NCBI GenBank assembly: GCA_018882885.1
Contig: VERG01000002.1
Span: 1 to 64,000 of the forward strand
From: Candidatus Nanopelagicaceae bacterium
GTDB taxonomy: Bacteria > Actinomycetota > Actinomycetes > Nanopelagicales > Nanopelagicaceae
DNA: 64,000 nt
Reading direction: 5' to 3'
Made by a program: the position numbers and the translations under genes. The notes under the pieces were generated by a model. It was not told the origin of the DNA, ran no database searches, and saw nothing but the letters and a program-made list of their open reading frames with translations. Below are positions 56,713-64,000 of this stretch, piece by piece. Positions within the stretch are counted from its first letter, which is position 1, and the number at the start of each line of letters is the position of its first letter.

Positions 56713-57274
56713 ATTTGCCGGCTTTTGCTTTGGCTTTTGCGACAGCCTTCACTGGTGACAAATCTTTACCAACCTTCCAAGCATCTAGAAAGCGCCACGG
56801 ATACAGCACTCCCCTTCGAATCTCCCAGTCACCTGGTTTGGTGGGATATGAAATTCCAAAATGCAAATGAGGTTTAGTTCCCCGAGCACTTCCGGTTGCA
56901 CCGACCTCGCCAAGTTTTTGTCCCACGACGACTACTACGCCAGGTGCAATCCCTGGTTCAATCCTTGAAAGATGCGATCCGTAATAACGAACTCCATCTT
57001 CGCCAATTATAGAGACCGACAATCCTCCACGATCCTTACCTAAATTAGTTTTTCCGCTCCAGATGTCTTTTGAGTTTACATCTTCAACCACTCCATTAAT
57101 CGGCGCGACAAATGCACAACCAAGTTTGGCTTGAATGTCAGTAGCAGGGTAATCATGATGATATTTGCCATAACTGCTTTTGCAATCAGCAACTGGGAAT
57201 GCGTAGATGGGCGCTGCGTTTGCAGGAAAAACAGGAACCAAAGCCAAAACCAAAATGCCGATTAATTTCTTCAC
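56711..57274 (-). CDS. Secreted M23 (LytM) peptidase
   Basis: A 187-aa protein with a signal peptide (MKKLIGILVLALVPVFPANAAP, cleavage near NAA). The M23 metal ligands are visible: HHDYPATDIQAK (H and D) and HLHFGISYP (HxH). A central GCAFVAPINGVVEDV segment is typical. All catalytic residues seem present, so it may cut peptidoglycan cross-links. The C-terminus is Lys/Ala-rich (VKAVAKAKAKAGK). The start GTG overlaps the blh stop (GTGA at 57271-57274), so it is translationally coupled to a retinal-making enzyme, an odd pairing. Confidence 0.88.
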   Translation of the reverse strand: MKKLIGILVLALVPVFPANAAPIYAFPVADCKSSYGKYHHDYPATDIQAKLGCAFVAPINGVVEDVNSKDIWSGKTNLGKDRGGLSVSIIGEDGVRYYGSHLSRIEPGIAPGVVVVVGQKLGEVGATGSARGTKPHLHFGISYPTKPGDWEIRRGVLYPWRFLDAWKVGKDLSPVKAVAKAKAKAGK

Positions 57275-58227
57275 CGCAACGCCGCCTTATCTAGTCGTGC
57301 CGTCACAATCATGTGCGGAACAGTTAAAGCCCACACCACTACTAGTGAGAGCCACAGGAACTCATCACTTAGTTTCCCAGGCGTAAATAGGGCAATTCCG
57401 AACGACACTATGAAAGTGCCCACAAGAGCAGGAACGCCCGGGAGTACCGCTTGGCGAAATGCTTTGGCGGGTTGATTGTTATGTAAAGATTCTTGAGAAC
57501 TCTTTAAATTTAGAGTTAACCGAGCTGTATGACGCATCGCATGCCAGGTGCCGAAGTATGCGGCAAAGGCAACCAGGGGTGGAGTAAAGAAGGCAAGGAG
57601 TAAAAGCAGATTAATATCGATCAAATCTCTCCACCGTCGATTGGCCGCTAAGACCAGTACGGCAACGAGATACATTCCGGTTACCAGGTTTGTTAACTCT
57701 TGATCTAATCCTCCATGCCAATTAATCAAAACATCATTAACTGCTGCAAGAGCTGAGGTGCTCTCCTGATTGGTAAGAGGTATCACGACCGGCAAAGCAC
57801 CTGCTGTAATAGCATAAAAAGTTTGGGCTAATCTATTTACTCGCACAGACCCTTTGGCTCGCTCAAGTTCATTAATAAAAGCGGTATCGCCAATTCCAAA
57901 ATGAAGTGCGCTCATTACAACCACGCCAATGAATCCATAAACATTCCATTGCAGTATCGCTAGTACCGCTAAAGCTGCAATCAAAACATAAATCAAAATA
58001 AATAAACTCATTCGCTTGATTGAGGCGCGTGGCAGAGTGACTAAATGATCAAGCGCCCCATGCGGAATACCGACCGCTAAAGCAAATAAAGCTATTACTA
58101 CCTGCCAAGAAATATCGGTTTCATCTATGAACTGAGAGAAAACTAGTGAAAGTAAAATAACCACACTCACGGCGATACTAGAGAAGTTACGGGTGCGGGT
58201 GAAAAGTTTCACCTGTGCTTCCGACAT
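57271..58227 (-). CDS. blh: Brp/Blh-family beta-carotene 15,15'-dioxygenase
   Basis: Blh splits beta-carotene into two retinals. The 318-aa protein is polytopic (about 8 helices). It has the conserved GIPHGALDHLVTL, ALHFGIGD, and HAMRHTARL, where the histidines bind iron. In actinobacteria such genes supply retinal to rhodopsins (actinorhodopsin or xanthorhodopsin-like). No opsin is in the window. It is divergent from crtYc-crtYd across 47 bp. TACCTT lies 6 nt before the ATG, and GAGAG could also serve as a ribosome site. Confidence 0.9.
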   Translation of the reverse strand: MSEAQVKLFTRTRNFSSIAVSVVILLSLVFSQFIDETDISWQVVIALFALAVGIPHGALDHLVTLPRASIKRMSLFILIYVLIAALAVLAILQWNVYGFIGVVVMSALHFGIGDTAFINELERAKGSVRVNRLAQTFYAITAGALPVVIPLTNQESTSALAAVNDVLINWHGGLDQELTNLVTGMYLVAVLVLAANRRWRDLIDINLLLLLAFFTPPLVAFAAYFGTWHAMRHTARLTLNLKSSQESLHNNQPAKAFRQAVLPGVPALVGTFIVSFGIALFTPGKLSDEFLWLSLVVVWALTVPHMIVTARLDKAALR

Positions 58228-58274
58228 ACTCTCAAGGTAGCAAAATCCATTACCTGATGTGAGAAACTAATGAA

Positions 58275-58613
58275 ATGTCGCAAGGGCTAACACTAGAAAA
58301 CTGGTCCTATTTAGGCATGCTGCTTTTTGTGGTAACTGGATCTTGGTGGCTAGAGTTTGCCTTCAAGATTAGGGTCCTGCGTCGTCCGCGTTTAGCTCTT
58401 TCAGCAATTTTCCCCGTAAGCATTTTTTTCCTGGTTTGGGATGCCTTTGCAATCAATCAAAACCATTGGGAGTTCGACAACCAACAGATGTTAGGTATTT
58501 ACGGTCCATTCAATATCCCACTTGAGGAGTACCTCTTTTTCTTCATTATTCCGCTGGCTGCTTTGCTTACTCTCGAAGGTGTTAAATCTCTAATTAATCG
58601 AGCCAAAAAATGA
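58275..58613 (+). CDS. crtYc: Lycopene cyclase subunit CrtYc
   Basis: One half of the heterodimeric membrane lycopene beta-cyclase found in actinobacteria. The 112-aa protein has three helices and the conserved motif IPLEEYLFF (PxE(E/D)). N-terminal WSYLGMLLFVV and WWLEFAFKIRVLR fit the family. It overlaps crtYd by 4 bp (ATGA), so the two subunits are made in equal amounts. It closes both ends of lycopene to give beta-carotene, the Blh substrate. Confidence 0.88.
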   Translation: MSQGLTLENWSYLGMLLFVVTGSWWLEFAFKIRVLRRPRLALSAIFPVSIFFLVWDAFAINQNHWEFDNQQMLGIYGPFNIPLEEYLFFFIIPLAALLTLEGVKSLINRAKK

Positions 58614-58924
58614 GATTTGAACTCACCTACACTCAAATCACGGTTTACGCCCTGATCATCACAATCTTTTTTGATATGTTCATAACTCGGAACTCCTTGC
58701 TTTCAACTATGCGCTTCTGGTTCAGCTACTCAATCATTCTGCCCTTTCAGCTGTTAACTAATTGGTGGCTCACAAGCCGTGAGATAGTCACCTATAACCC
58801 AGATTCCATTATGGGTCTGCGGGTCGCAGGCGCCCCCTTTGAGGATTTGATCTTTGGTTTTGCGATGGTTCTTGCGGTCATGAGCATGTGGGAAGCGTTG
58901 GTAGGTCGGAAAAACTCTGCATGA
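58610..58924 (+). CDS. crtYd: Lycopene cyclase subunit CrtYd
   Basis: The partner of CrtYc: 104 aa with three helices and the cyclase motif APFEDLIFGFAMV (PxE(E/D)). It begins MRFELTYTQITVYALIITIFFDMF. crtE, crtB and crtI, needed to make lycopene, are absent from the window. It ends 29 bp before a tRNA-Met on the same strand. Confidence 0.86.
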   Translation: MRFELTYTQITVYALIITIFFDMFITRNSLLSTMRFWFSYSIILPFQLLTNWWLTSREIVTYNPDSIMGLRVAGAPFEDLIFGFAMVLAVMSMWEALVGRKNSA

Positions 58925-58953: not shown

Positions 58954-59030
58954 GGGGCGGTAGCTCAGTTGGTTAGAGCCCCGGACTCATAATCCGGTCG
59001 TCGTCGGTTCGAGCCCGACCCGCCCCACCA
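58954..59030 (+). tRNA. tRNA-Met (CAT anticodon, elongator type)
   Basis: The cloverleaf has acceptor GGGGCGG/CCGCCCC, discriminator A and an encoded CCA. The anticodon loop ACTCATAAT gives CAT. The T arm has GGTTCGAGCCC. The perfect 1-72 pair rules out initiator tRNA. An Ile tRNA read through lysidine (tRNA-Ile-CAT) is the main alternative. It sits between crtYd and the ABC transporter operon. Confidence 0.9.
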
Positions 59031-59089
59031 GGGTTTACCTTCTTTATCAATATGCAATCTAACGATTCATGACTTTATTGCCCTGCCCT

Positions 59090-59114
59090 GTTATTGTGCT
59101 GCGTAAGCAATAAC
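59090..59114 (+). promoter_or_regulatory. Inverted repeat before the ABC transporter operon
   Basis: GTTATTG-n11-CAATAAC, a perfect 7-bp-arm inverted repeat starting 48 bp upstream of the substrate-binding-protein ATG. Position and size suit an operator. It does not match the DtxR or Fur consensus well, so the regulator is unknown. Confidence 0.35.
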
Positions 59115-59137
59115 CCTCGTATTGATGAAAGGCAAGA

Positions 59138-60292
59138 ATGAAAAGATCAAAGTTGATCGCATTCGGTGCGCTCTCCGCTCTCGTCCTATCACTTCTCTCA
59201 GTTGTCGCTCCTGCTCAGGCAGCACGTGACCTAAAGGGCAGCAAGTGTGCACAAGAAGGATTAGTACGCACCATCTCTGGAGTTACCTATACATGCGAAC
59301 GCGTGGCTGGCAACCTTCAGTATGCGCAAGGTCGTAAATTATCCGGAACCTTAAATGTTCTATGTGGCGCTCAAGAAGCTTGGTGCGTAGCAATGACATC
59401 TGCGTTCCAGAAGAAAACTGGAATTACAACAAAGTTCATCCGACTCTCTGCTGGTGAAGGATTGACCCGTTTGGTGGCATCCAAGAACAACCCAGAGTTT
59501 GATGTTTGGCATGGTGGACCGAATGACACTTATATCTCCGGTCGTGTTCAGGGAGTTCTAGATACTTATAAATCTCCAACTCGCAACATGCTTAAGTCTC
59601 AGCACAAAGATGCTGATGGATATTGGACCGGCGTTTACATGGGCGCACTTGGTTTCTGCTCAAATACAAATGAGTTGAAGCGTCTTGGTTTGAAGGCTCC
59701 TACCAGCTGGAATGATTTGTTGAACCCTAAGTACAAGGGCAACATCATGATGGCCCACCCAGGAACTTCGGGAACCGCTTACACAGCGTTGTTCTCACAG
59801 GTTCTTCGTCTGGGATCTGAAGATGCAGCTATCGATTACATGAAGGATCTAAACAAGAACATTCTTTCCTATACCCGAAGCGGAGCTGGCCCAACCGGTC
59901 CTCTTGGTCGTGGTGAGGTGGCAACTGGTCTTGTTTTCTCACATGACTGCACAGCAGCAAAGTTACGTGGTAATCCACTAGTTGTTTCCTTCCCTAAGGA
60001 AGGAACCGGCTTTGAAATCGGCGCTGTTGGTTTTGTAAAGGGTGCAAAGAACCCTGATGCAGCTAAGGCATATATCGATTTCACACTATCTGCTGAGGCA
60101 CAAAACCTTGGTCCAGCTTCAGCTGAGTCATTCCAAGTATTGACTAATCCAAATGCGAAGTATGACCGTCGTATGGTGCAGCTAAACAAGATCACCTTGT
60201 TGGATTACGATGCTGAAAAAGCTGGTCTCTCGGCTGTGAAGTTGAAGGCTCGCTTCGACAAGGAAGTTGCTCTAGCTTCATCTGCTAAGTAA
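59138..60292 (+). CDS. ABC transporter substrate-binding protein (FutA/FbpA type)
   Basis: The 384-aa protein has a signal peptide (MKRSKLIAFGALSALVLSLL, then APAQAA; SPase I site AQA-AR) and no lipobox cysteine. After the signal is a short two-Cys module (KGSKCAQEG ... YTCERV, about 34-55). A type-2 periplasmic fold follows: LNVLCGAQEAWCVAMTSAFQKKTGI, GLTRLVASKNNPEFDVWHGG, and AHPGTSGTAYTALFSQV. Relatives bind Fe3+ or 2-aminoethylphosphonate; the lack of the lipid anchor is unusual for Gram-positives. Followed by a hairpin (60323-60356). Confidence 0.88.
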   Translation: MKRSKLIAFGALSALVLSLLSVVAPAQAARDLKGSKCAQEGLVRTISGVTYTCERVAGNLQYAQGRKLSGTLNVLCGAQEAWCVAMTSAFQKKTGITTKFIRLSAGEGLTRLVASKNNPEFDVWHGGPNDTYISGRVQGVLDTYKSPTRNMLKSQHKDADGYWTGVYMGALGFCSNTNELKRLGLKAPTSWNDLLNPKYKGNIMMAHPGTSGTAYTALFSQVLRLGSEDAAIDYMKDLNKNILSYTRSGAGPTGPLGRGEVATGLVFSHDCTAAKLRGNPLVVSFPKEGTGFEIGAVGFVKGAKNPDAAKAYIDFTLSAEAQNLGPASAESFQVLTNPNAKYDRRMVQLNKITLLDYDAEKAGLSAVKLKARFDKEVALASSAK

Positions 60293-60322
60293 TCAGTCCG
60301 AAGAGCAAGAGAAGTAAACGGG

Positions 60323-60356
60323 ATGAGGGTTCTGAAGTTCTCTTCAGAACCCTCAT
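60323..60356 (+). terminator. Intercistronic hairpin after the substrate-binding gene
   Basis: ATGAGGGTTCTGAA, loop GTTCTC, TTCAGAACCCTCAT: a perfect 14-bp stem followed by TTTCTTG. It lies between the binding-protein and permease genes of one operon, so it probably acts as a partial terminator or 3' stabiliser that leaves more binding protein than membrane parts. Confidence 0.85.
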
Positions 60357-60395
60357 TTCTTGAAATCTACTAAATTGAAATTTAGGAGTATGTAA

Positions 60396-62096
60396 TTGGC
60401 CATTAAGACCAGTGGTGCCAGGTACGACATTTTTACCAAGATTGCTTTGGTTCTAGTCGTTTTGATTATTGGCTTCTTGATCCTTCTTCCATTGGCCAAT
60501 ATTTTGGTTTATTCAACACAGCCATCCGGCAGTGCAATTTTGACTAACTCCTGGAGTGACATTGTCACCAGAGATATTATTTGGAACACGATAAAACTCG
60601 GCTTATCTGTTGCGTTTTTAGGAACCTTGCTTGGTTTCATCATGGCCTACACTCAAGCTCGAGTAGAGTTCCGCGGCAAGAAGATTCTGCACATTATCAA
60701 TCTAATTCCGATCATCTCTCCGCCATTTGCTTTTGCTACCGCTGTTATCGTTCTATTTGGCCGAAGCGGAATCATCACTAGAGGGGTTTTTGATTGGCGA
60801 CCTACCCTTTACGGCTTTCCCGGACTAGTTTTGGTTTTGACGCTTTCTTTCTTCCCTATCGCATACATGAACTTATTGGGCATGTTGCGAAGCCTTGATC
60901 CAGCTCTCGATGAAGCGGGCTCTAGTTTGGGCGCAAGTAAATGGAAGGTATTTAAGACCGTAACTCTGCCACTGCTCATTCCGGGTTTCGCCGGTTCGTT
61001 CCTATTGTTATTCATTGAAGCAATCGCAGATCTAGCCAACCCGATCATTATTGGCGGTAATTACACCGTTTTGGCATCCCGCGCCTATATGGCGATAAAT
61101 GGCGATTACGACATCTCTCTTGCTGCTGGATATTCAACTTTATTGTTGCTGCCGGCTCTTCTAGTTTTCTTAATTCAAAGATATTGGGCACAAAAACGCT
61201 CCGTGGTCTCGGTAACCGGAAAGCCAAGTGGTAGACCCACAATGGTTACTTCCAAACCAGCCAAGTTCTTCTTGCTAAGCATCACTGGATTGCTTACTTC
61301 ATTAGTTATTTTGGTTTATCTAACCGTTGTATTCGGAGCCTTCGTAAAGATTATCGGCGTTAACAATGAATTTACTCTAGACAACTTCCGTTATCTGCTG
61401 GGTGGCTTTGCAAATGGAGCCATTAAGACCACAGCAACTTTGGCATTAATCGCGACACCGATAGCAGGAATCTTCGGCATGGTTATTGCCTGGCTCGTAA
61501 TTAGAAAGGTACGTCGTGGCGCTGAAGCTCTAGATTTCTTGGGCATGTTAGGAATTGCGGTTCCTGGAACCGTAATCGGTATTGGCTATGCCATTACCTA
61601 CAACGATCCGGTGAAGATTGGAGATTTCACCGTCTTTCCTCAAGTTGGTGGCGGTGGTGCAATCTTGGGCGGTGCGATTGCCATCGTGATGGTTTACATC
61701 ATCAGATCCAGTCCCGCGGGTCAGAGATCTGGCATTGCACAGTTGCAGCAGATTGATCCTGCGATAGAAGAAGCTTCAGCATCGCTTGGCGCATCGGGCG
61801 GTAAAACTTTCCGACTCGTGACTTTGCCTTTAATTAGCGGAGCATTTTTATCTGGCTTGATGTACGCCTTTGCTCACTCGATGACAACACTCTCCCCAAT
61901 TATCTTCTTGGTAACTCCAGATACTTCAATTTTGACTCAGAAAATCTTGGCGGAAGCCGATCAAGGTCGCTACGGAAACGTCTTTGCCCTTTGTTGCATT
62001 TTGATTGTTTTAATCATGATTATCGGAGGTTTAATCAACCTCTTTGTAAGAAAGACCCAAGTTTCGGTAGATCGCCCGATGGTGACAGGACGCTAA
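60396..62096 (+). CDS. ABC transporter permease, two fused membrane domains
   Basis: The 566-aa protein has about 12 helices and two EAA loops: EAGSSLGASKWKVFKTVTLPLLIPG (about 168-192) and EASASLGASGGKTFRLVTLPLIS. It is therefore one polypeptide with two permease halves, the FbpB/PhnU-type arrangement. The start is TTG 60396 with AGGAG 8 nt upstream. It belongs to the operon with the binding protein and ATPase. The substrate, iron or an organophosphonate, cannot be settled from sequence. Confidence 0.9.
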   Translation: MAIKTSGARYDIFTKIALVLVVLIIGFLILLPLANILVYSTQPSGSAILTNSWSDIVTRDIIWNTIKLGLSVAFLGTLLGFIMAYTQARVEFRGKKILHIINLIPIISPPFAFATAVIVLFGRSGIITRGVFDWRPTLYGFPGLVLVLTLSFFPIAYMNLLGMLRSLDPALDEAGSSLGASKWKVFKTVTLPLLIPGFAGSFLLLFIEAIADLANPIIIGGNYTVLASRAYMAINGDYDISLAAGYSTLLLLPALLVFLIQRYWAQKRSVVSVTGKPSGRPTMVTSKPAKFFLLSITGLLTSLVILVYLTVVFGAFVKIIGVNNEFTLDNFRYLLGGFANGAIKTTATLALIATPIAGIFGMVIAWLVIRKVRRGAEALDFLGMLGIAVPGTVIGIGYAITYNDPVKIGDFTVFPQVGGGGAILGGAIAIVMVYIIRSSPAGQRSGIAQLQQIDPAIEEASASLGASGGKTFRLVTLPLISGAFLSGLMYAFAHSMTTLSPIIFLVTPDTSILTQKILAEADQGRYGNVFALCCILIVLIMIIGGLINLFVRKTQVSVDRPMVTGR

Positions 62097-62105
62097 GGAG
62101 AAATA

Positions 62106-63233
62106 ATGGCAAGCAAAACCGGCAGCCTAAAACTAGAACGCCTAACAAAGGAGTTCGGCAACGGCAAAGAGAAGGTCGTTGCGGTCCGCGAACTTTCACT
62201 GACCATTAATCCAGGAGAGTTTGTAACCTTACTCGGGCCATCTGGGTGCGGTAAGACAACTGCGCTTCGAATGATTGCTGGATTTGAAACCCCAACATCT
62301 GGAAATGTGTTATTAGATGGCGAGAATTTGGTAGCGATGACACCGGATAAGCGTCCGATGGGAATGGTGTTTCAATCTTATGCACTGTTTCCACACATGA
62401 CAGTTTTTGACAATGTAGCTTATGGATTGCGTATCAAGAAGATGTCTGCTGCTGAGATCAAAACTGCGGTAGCTGAAGTTTTAGAATCAATGAGCCTTTC
62501 CCATCTAGCAAATCGAGCTCCAAATCAACTTTCTGGCGGACAACAGCAACGTGTGGCACTTGCACGTGCCATGGTGGTTCGTCCCAAGGTTTTGCTCTTT
62601 GATGAGCCGCTATCTAATCTCGATGCCAAATTACGCGCCCAAATGCGAATTGAAATTCGCAACATTCAACGACGCCTGGGAATCACCAGTATCTTCGTTA
62701 CACATGATCAAGATGAAGCGATGAGCCTTTCTGATCGAATCGTTGTTATGCGAAACGCGGTGGTAGAACAGGTGGGAAATCCAGATGAGGTTTACCGCCG
62801 CCCCGCATCTGTTTTCGTCGCTGACTTCATAGGCCGTTCCAATTTCCTAAAGGTTGAAAACGCCAAGAAAGCCCGCTCCGGCAAAGCCTCAGTAGTTGTG
62901 GGCGGAGTAGAGCTTGAGGTTGCTGCGCAAGAAAATGCTTTGAGTTCTAAGCATCCAGTTCTATTAGTTCGACCTGAATCAATCTCCGTTACCGCCGCTA
63001 GGTCGGCAAAACCGGGCAAGAGCGAAGGCGTGGTTTCAAATGTTGTGTTTTACGGAAACCATGTTGAGTACACATTAGATACCGATGAAGGCCTTATTTT
63101 GGCCGTCGTTTCAGATCCAATCTACGAAGAGATTGTTCCGGTCGGAAAGGTTGCCAGGTACTCATTTGATGAAGAGCGCGCCTGGTTACTACCTTCCGAA
63201 TCCGAGCGGGCAACCAAAGAGGATCAAGAATGA
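62106..63233 (+). CDS. ABC transporter ATP-binding protein (FbpC/PotA type)
   Basis: The 375-aa ATPase has Walker A LGPSGCGKTTALRMIAG (about 41-57), Q-loop MVFQSYALFPHMTV, signature LSGGQQQRVALARAM, Walker B VLLFDEPLSNLDAKLR and the switch His in VTHDQDE. A C-terminal TOBE-like domain of about 130 aa follows (VFVADFIGRSNFLKVE to GNHVEYTLDTD). GGAG lies 7 nt upstream. Its stop overlaps the next gene as ATGA. It powers the fused permease. Confidence 0.95.
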   Translation: MASKTGSLKLERLTKEFGNGKEKVVAVRELSLTINPGEFVTLLGPSGCGKTTALRMIAGFETPTSGNVLLDGENLVAMTPDKRPMGMVFQSYALFPHMTVFDNVAYGLRIKKMSAAEIKTAVAEVLESMSLSHLANRAPNQLSGGQQQRVALARAMVVRPKVLLFDEPLSNLDAKLRAQMRIEIRNIQRRLGITSIFVTHDQDEAMSLSDRIVVMRNAVVEQVGNPDEVYRRPASVFVADFIGRSNFLKVENAKKARSGKASVVVGGVELEVAAQENALSSKHPVLLVRPESISVTAARSAKPGKSEGVVSNVVFYGNHVEYTLDTDEGLILAVVSDPIYEEIVPVGKVARYSFDEERAWLLPSESERATKEDQE

Positions 63234-63475
63234 GTACTCCGAATTATTTTCGATATACCGCCTACGCTCTGATCGCAGTTGGTCTAATAAATCTCCGTTA
63301 CCAGACCGGTAAGTCAGATTTAAGCACTACTACACTCCTAATTGTTGGTACTGGAGCTGCGATTTTCGCTTTGACCTATCTAGGTTTTGGAAAAAAGTTC
63401 TTAACCACTTTAGCTGGAAAAGTAATCGTGTCTGTAGCAGCGATCGCTGCAGGGCTGTTAGCAATACTCAACTAG
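63230..63475 (+). CDS. Small three-helix membrane protein of the ABC operon
   Basis: An 81-aa protein with three hydrophobic segments (about 9-22, 32-50, 58-80): YRYTAYALIAVGLINLRY-like N-terminus (here FRYTAYALIAVGLINLRY), then TTTLLIVGTGAAIFALTYLGFG and LAGKVIVSVAAIAAGLLAIL. I do not recognise a family. Its ATG overlaps the ATPase stop (ATGA, 63230-63233), so it is made with the transporter. It might be a subunit or a regulator; nothing shows which. Confidence 0.6.
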   Translation: MSTPNYFRYTAYALIAVGLINLRYQTGKSDLSTTTLLIVGTGAAIFALTYLGFGKKFLTTLAGKVIVSVAAIAAGLLAILN

Positions 63476-63485
63476 CAATAAATTA

Positions 63486-63758
63486 ATGTCCCAAACTTTG
63501 ACCTTGTCGGAAATCAAAGCTCGATGGAACGAAGTATTGGATTTGGTAGAGCGGGAAAACCGTATCGCGTGGCTGGCTTTTTTTGATGCTCGGTTGGTTT
63601 CCTTTGATAACAATAAACTTAGATTGAGTTTTGTAGATGCTGAGAAACTCAGCGGAGTCCATGATTTTGCAGCGGTCCGTAAGGAATCTCACCGCAAAGT
63701 TTTGGAACAGGCGTGTGTTGAGATTTTTGGAGAGCAAATAGAGATAATGACGGAGTGA
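63486..63758 (+). CDS. Stand-alone protein resembling the DnaX tau C-terminal domain
   Basis: The 90-aa protein begins SLTLSEIKARWNEVLDLV-like (actual: TLTLSEIKARWNEVLDLVERENRIAW). It continues with a beta-rich core (ARLVSFDNNKLRLSFVDAEKL) and a terminal helix (HRKVLEQACVEIFGEQIEI). The pattern W-x2-vl-x2-v, then dg-x-L-x-L-x-F, then h-x4-lE-x-a-x5-fG matches domain V/IV regions of the polymerase III gamma/tau subunit by eye. A normal DnaX would carry this fused to its ATPase. It has no ATPase here. Its GTG-overlapping stop (63755-63758) couples it to the next gene. Low certainty on homology. Confidence 0.55.
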   Translation: MSQTLTLSEIKARWNEVLDLVERENRIAWLAFFDARLVSFDNNKLRLSFVDAEKLSGVHDFAAVRKESHRKVLEQACVEIFGEQIEIMTE

Positions 63759-64000
63759 TTCGACCGCGCCTTCTCTCCCCACTTCTGGCCATAGTTCTAA
63801 CCGCAACCCTTCTCTCTCCAGCGCAGGCCGCCAAAGCATCCTCCACCTTTAATTTGGTGCAAACTCCATCATTTCCAGAGTACAAGGTCACCTTTCATGG
63901 TGTTATCAAACCAAAGGTAAAAAATGCGGTAGTTAGAATCGATGTGAAGTTGGGAAACACCTGGAGCGATACGAGATTACGCACTAAATCAACACCGAGT
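63755..64000 (+). CDS. Secreted protein of unknown function (3' end cut off)
   Basis: Starting at GTG 63755 (overlapping the previous stop as GTGA), 82 codons remain open to the window edge. The N-terminus is a signal peptide: MIRPRLLSPLLAIVLTATLL, then SPAQAAKA with a likely cleavage after AQA. The following 50 residues (FNLVQTPSFPEYKVTFHGVIKP...) look like a beta-sandwich start, with VVRIDVKLGNTWSD repeating a strand pattern. No family can be named. It may be the exported product of the ABC operon. Confidence 0.65.
   Translation, partial: MIRPRLLSPLLAIVLTATLLSPAQAAKASSTFNLVQTPSFPEYKVTFHGVIKPKVKNAVVRIDVKLGNTWSDTRLRTKSTPS

Follow-up and report, generated by a model that had tools for sequence, protein, structure and literature searches.

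The 90-residue protein encoded near the end of the analysed stretch of Candidatus Nanopelagicaceae bacterium DNA (64,000 nucleotides, hereafter the window) is almost certainly a conserved paralogue of the C-terminal domain, or tail, of DnaX (tau). Tau-tail domains have so far been described as constituents of DnaX, and a literature search across open-licence papers returned none on a stand-alone DnaX tail. Here the domain is encoded by a single open reading frame (ORF) that is not fused to an AAA+ clamp-loader ATPase, as the sequence-only reading of the window had described it.

The gene (Table 1) is separated by 10 nt from an upstream ORF for a predicted membrane protein, which had no match in Pfam or NCBIfam and which itself overlaps the ABC transporter ATPase gene by 4 nt. 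At its other end the last 4 nt of the free ORF overlap the start of a gene for a secreted protein of GH25 type, which bears out the overlap with a secreted-protein gene read from the letters alone. From this gene spacing the free gene may be co-transcribed with its neighbours; a promoter and terminator scan of positions 59000-64000 was non-informative, yielding no promoter-like and two terminator-like sites, below the shuffled sequences and none of them near the free gene. Pairwise dN/dS values among close relatives ranged from 0.04 to 0.29 in 27 of 30 pairs, the other three having no computable dS, and the protein is therefore under purifying selection; the ORF proposed earlier is thus a real gene with an ATG start on the forward strand. 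The closest models for the transporter at 59138-63233 were those of the 2-aminoethylphosphonate proteins PhnS2 and PhnU2, but the scores lay far under their cut-offs. Further upstream, at 57271-58924, a Blh/Brp-type beta-carotene dioxygenase gene lies beside two small lycopene-cyclase genes, which together make up a retinal-making set (Pfam).

Table 1. Coordinates in the window of the free gene, of its neighbours and of the segments of the free protein discussed in the text.
Feature	Position	Strand	Remarks
ABC transporter substrate-binding protein	59138..60292	+	nearest PhnS2-type, below that model's cut-off
ABC transporter permease (fused)	60396..62096	+	nearest PhnU2-type, below that model's cut-off
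ABC transporter ATPase	62106..63233	+	Pfam ABC_tran, TOBE_2
Predicted membrane protein	63230..63475	+	81 aa; upstream neighbour in part of Nanopelagicaceae
Free DnaX-tail-like protein	63486..63758	+	ATG start, 90 aa plus stop
Predicted helix A, residues 7-24	63504..63557	+	includes W14, which is invariant in both free copies and DnaX tails
F33-D34-A35-R36-L37	63582..63596	+	end of helix B/start of strand 1; free-family signature, not conserved in DnaX tails
D51..K54	63636..63647	+	second free-family signature
Loop with H59 and R65	63660..63680	+	conserved in free copies; R65 without DnaX counterpart
GH25-type secreted protein, start	63755..64000	+	536 aa; runs past the window to contig position 65365

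The homology to DnaX was established by family models and by comparison of profiles. The NCBIfam DnaX model NF005848 matched the window protein with E 1.3e-6, the match spanning positions 484-565 of the 827 in the profile, and it also matched 25 of the 27 relatives of the free protein. The Pfam model DnaX_C (PF20964) gave the window protein 14.0 bits and E 0.05, short of its curated cut-off of 26.2 bits; among the free relatives the best E was 9.9e-5 and 16 of 27 were matched at E<=1, so that this model reaches most of the relatives. When the profile of the free copies (A1; 26 genomes, of which one contributed two of the 27 rows) was aligned with that of 24 DnaX tails, 81 columns were paired with a probability of 98.7%, E 1.9e-16 and a score of 86.2. 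The free profile reached a score of at most 17.4 against 100 column-shuffled versions of the DnaX-tail profile A3 and 8.7 against its reversed version, while nine DnaA_N sequences of the family scored 17.35 (hhalign probability 2.8) and ten DciA sequences of the family 16.8 (probability 1.3). As the score of 86.2 is far above both the shuffled and the unrelated controls, the free protein belongs to the DnaX tail superfamily. The tau-like pattern noticed in the 90 residues thus reflects true homology, and the other option left by the sequence-only reading, an unrelated fold with a coincidental likeness, is contradicted by the NF005848 matches and the profile comparison. The still stronger doubt, that the ORF is spurious and its DnaX pattern fortuitous, could draw on the weak single-sequence Pfam score and on a 118-aa antisense ORF that overlaps it, but it is already refuted by the conservation across genera with a dN/dS of about 0.1 and by the profile E value, and its probability is negligible. 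Solved structures searched by sequence with the free protein gave nothing under E 0.17.

The alignment separates what the free copies share with DnaX from what is their own. W14 is invariant in all 38 free rows and all 39 DnaX-tail rows, and R26, W29, L73 and G82 are mostly kept in both. The free copies carry in addition their own signature, F33-D-x-R-L37, D51..K54, H59 and R65, whose residues F33, D34, R36, L37, D51, K54, H59 and R65 are each present in 92-100% of the 38 free rows and are not conserved in the DnaX tails. The two groups differ also at the C-terminus: in DnaX the folded part is followed by a linker and then by a conserved terminal peptide of LLxxELGAxVI type (12 of 12 aligned tails), whereas the free ORFs stop at or soon past the last strand without an ELGA-type peptide (27 of 27). 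For E. coli tau, passages of PMC11470591 place the contact with alpha beyond the folded domain, in a stretch that runs from residue 611 to at least 636, and report that tau lacking its last 25 residues shows negligible alpha binding. On the assumption that the actinobacterial DnaX terminal peptide acts like the polymerase-binding peptide of E. coli, the free protein would, by analogy, be without a polymerase tether. Its lack of the terminal peptide makes polymerase tethering as in tau unlikely, and recruiting, blocking or bridging more likely.

AlphaFold models were made of the free protein (pLDDT 79.8; alignment of 57 rows, six of them DnaX tails) and of the DnaX tail (pLDDT 90.5; 24 rows), and both were predicted to have the element order helix-helix-strand-strand-helix-helix-strand. 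In the comparison with the tau C-terminal domain that had been proposed as a check, the free protein thus showed the same order of elements as the DnaX tail, and E. coli tau was among the weaker matches (5fku/2aya; Z 5.1/4.8 for the free model and 6.9/6.5 for the DnaX-tail model). The best PDB match of both models was DnaA domain I in complex with SirA (4tps), with Z 7.8 and an rmsd of 3.1 over 77 residues for the free model, and Z 11.7 and an rmsd of 1.9 over 80 residues for the DnaX-tail model; the value of 7.8 for the predicted free fold is under Z 8 and within the range of chance arrangements. DciA was matched at Z 5.4 (7ykm) by the free model and at Z 8.8 (8a3v) and 7.9 (7ykm) by the DnaX-tail model. 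Since the values for the free model are modest and ribosomal and EngA KH-like chains also reach Z of about 5 or more against it, the main support for its fold comes from the homology to the DnaX tail. The matches to ribosomal proteins, EngA and RbfA were set aside as clues to function, as they come with the KH-like class. Actinobacterial DnaX tails themselves (A3, L002:1464-1739 and others) matched DnaA domain I by profile (probability 87, E 3.7e-6), and this match by both profile and fold (Z 11.7) suggests that the two domains share an ancestor.

The free protein can accordingly be set beside three known systems. It shares profile homology and the predicted order of elements with the DnaX/tau C-terminal domain (PF20964; domain V in E. 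coli, 2aya/5fku), but it stands alone, lies below the Pfam cut-off, lacks the terminal peptide and has its own signature. DnaA domain I (PF11638) is the best PDB match of its predicted fold, at a Z under 8, but the free protein has no AAA+ domain and no profile similarity to the DnaA_N sequences of the family. With the DciA/DUF721 helicase loader (PF05258), which is likewise a small separate protein, it shares a KH-like fold among the matches of its model, but neither profile similarity nor a PF05258 match. The genome of the window encodes both DciA and a DnaA that includes domain I, and for this genome we therefore rejected the possibility that the free protein replaces either of them. DciA was found in all 31 genomes searched, and DnaA_N at E<=0.001 in 11 of the 31, including the genome of the window (two were over the model's cut-off), the search leaving the other 20 unsettled.

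A domain encoded alone raises the question of a split clamp loader, in which the free protein would be the separately made tail of the genome's own DnaX. The solitary ORF and the homology to the DnaX tail are what this arrangement predicts, and it had been suggested that a dnaX lacking the domain would support it. The dnaX gene of the genome, however, is full length: it lies on another contig, followed by a gene that by inspection is recR-like, and encodes 558 aa with the AAA+, lid and domain III regions recognized by Pfam and with a tail of its own that is 29% identical to the free protein. As this DnaX did not match Pfam DnaX_C at E<=1, it is the profile comparison that links its tail to the free protein. 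The tail and the terminal peptide are also kept in the eight other Nanopelagicaceae genomes with an aligned DnaX tail. A tree was built from 38 free copies and 39 DnaX tails (95 columns, poorly resolved inside each group); in it all free copies fell on one side of a branch with support 98/96, and a forced grouping of the free copies of the family with the DnaX tails of the same family was rejected (p-AU 0.00025). The complete dnaX refutes the split clamp loader for this genome and the tree speaks against it as well, and we consider it very improbable. As the free copies form one clade and the own-family grouping is rejected, the gene did not arise by a recent break of the Nanopelagicaceae dnaX; the best explanation is that the free protein descends from a DnaX C-terminal domain through one old event that predates the present Nanopelagicaceae.

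The free gene is nearly universal in its family and patchy outside it. The A1 profile matched 104 of 112 Nanopelagicaceae genomes with completeness >=90%, a count that includes one match (G313) to a fragment lying at the edge of its contig, and in a search of the whole order 252 of 296 genomes matched, with Nanopelagicaceae the sole family among the matches listed. A sample of the class gave free copies in 34 of 296 genomes (28 Nanopelagicaceae, 4 of family f38 and 2 of family f34); the rest of the matches were weak, and most of them fell in DnaX-sized frames. Of 198 genomes sampled across the phylum, the window's own was the only one with a free copy. Within f38 free copies were found in 13 of 17 genomes. 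The order comprising f34, f38 and f39, which may have gained the gene by descent or by transfer, has them patchily, in 37 of 119 genomes with E under 1e-18. Several genomes contain both a free copy and a match of DnaX size. In another collection, close copies occurred in seven named records assigned to Nanopelagicales, Nanopelagicaceae, Actinomycetota and, in one case, Bifidobacterium breve, the last of which looks like a mislabelled metagenome-assembled genome. One genome has, besides an intact free copy, a second, decayed-looking one (G004:C2; L057:4316-4564), whose open frame continues into unrelated sequence. A mobile origin was rejected, as viral contigs gave 10 pattern matches and no confirmed relative, phages and plasmids held no relative of the free protein, and PHROGs returned weak rows only (best 0.0073).

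We also compared the surroundings of the gene across genomes. Of 53 Nanopelagicaceae loci, 46 have a GH25 gene no more than 2.5 kb downstream, often with a 4-nt overlap; of the seven loci without it, one has only 565 bases of sequence left and two have about 1.2 kb, and three genomes (G032, G035, G242) keep the free gene without GH25 where over 3.9 kb of sequence follows it. Twelve of the 53 family loci, all of the window's genus, have an ABC ATPase no more than 1.5 kb upstream, one of these being a weak match. Outside Nanopelagicaceae, GH25 occurred in none of six loci, and the neighbours there included Der/EngA and exonuclease III and, by inspection, MenA-like, NhaA-like antiporter and CDGSH-like proteins. 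No gene is thus a constant neighbour across lineages, and the transporter and GH25 are therefore poor guides to function. The transporter operon in which the gene had been placed does adjoin it in the window, but most family loci lack the transporter, which is an accidental neighbour. At two loci of genus g6 (L050, L140) a protein rich in GGMQQ-type repeats is encoded beside the free gene in place of GH25. A dnaG primase gene with both DnaB-binding domains lies on the window's contig about 9.5 kb downstream (L066:15290-17146), and two g2 genomes (L048, L144) have a DnaG-like frame close to the free gene, at varying strand and distance; with the strands so varied, proximity to dnaG was taken as chance and rejected as a functional link.

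DnaA domain I and DciA bind DnaB, and tau domain V contacts the polymerase. The likeliest reading, in which we infer partner and function by analogy, is that the free protein would be a stand-alone adaptor like DnaA domain I and tau domain V. As with other domains of KH-like fold, a single domain would mediate protein-protein contact at the replication machinery, binding one partner among DnaB, DnaA, DnaX and DnaE, through a surface formed by D34, R36, D51, K54, H59 and R65, and it would recruit, block or bridge rather than tether the polymerase. The stretch from H59 to R65 has the lowest model confidence (pLDDT 53 for residues 51-60 and 63 for 61-70, with the loop under 50), which perhaps fits a loop that becomes ordered on binding. 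In DnaA domain I, helices 2 and 3 are described in a passage of PMC5448010 as binding DnaB and regulators. The absence of a constant neighbour across lineages is what is expected of a protein that acts by itself. The tight linkage within Nanopelagicaceae is to GH25 and not to replication genes, which counts against a replication role, and any domain can retain its fold while its old role is lost. We put the chance that the free protein acts at the replication machinery at about even. The fuller proposal, of an unnamed and near-universal replication factor of Nanopelagicaceae, present also in some families of another order, that docks on helicase, initiator or clamp loader, regulates fork assembly and would make a fourth protein using this fold in the same cell, along with DnaA, DciA and tau, is tentative and rather less probable.

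Three other roles have to be weighed against a replication adaptor. A binder of nucleic acid (ssDNA or RNA) of KH-like type, with no specific replisome partner, would suit the predicted fold, its matches to KH-like ribosomal and EngA chains and the conserved basic residues R26, R36, K54 and R65, and excerpts of PMC12547741 and PMC5448010 describe ssDNA binding by DciA and, weakly, by DnaA domain I; the invariant set is nevertheless mixed, with D34 and D51 beside R36 and K54, and the sequence matches DnaX and no KH family in Pfam, which leaves this role doubtful. A decoy or modulator of the contact between polymerase and tau, pairing with either DnaE or the DnaX tail and tuning the coupling, would follow from the homology to tau domain V, the alpha-binding domain in E. 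coli according to part of PMC11470591, yet binding there needs the terminal residues that the free ORFs lack and the DnaX tails keep, and we regard it as unlikely. A function in the cell wall or envelope together with the GH25 protein is suggested by the frequent and often overlapping GH25 gene within the family, but it is opposed by the different neighbours outside it and by the genomes that keep the free gene alone; moreover, the GH25 protein is secreted and no signal sequence was seen by inspection in the free protein, so that this role appears quite improbable.

An old and strongly conserved free copy of the tau tail in the very small genomes of these abundant lake bacteria points to a replication function, or a recruited one, that is unnamed in the annotation libraries searched. 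As a small expressible protein it offers a handle on the folded part of the tau tail apart from the polymerase-binding peptide. If its partner is DnaB or DnaA, the free protein would be an added regulator at a step that has until now been attributed to DnaA domain I and DciA.
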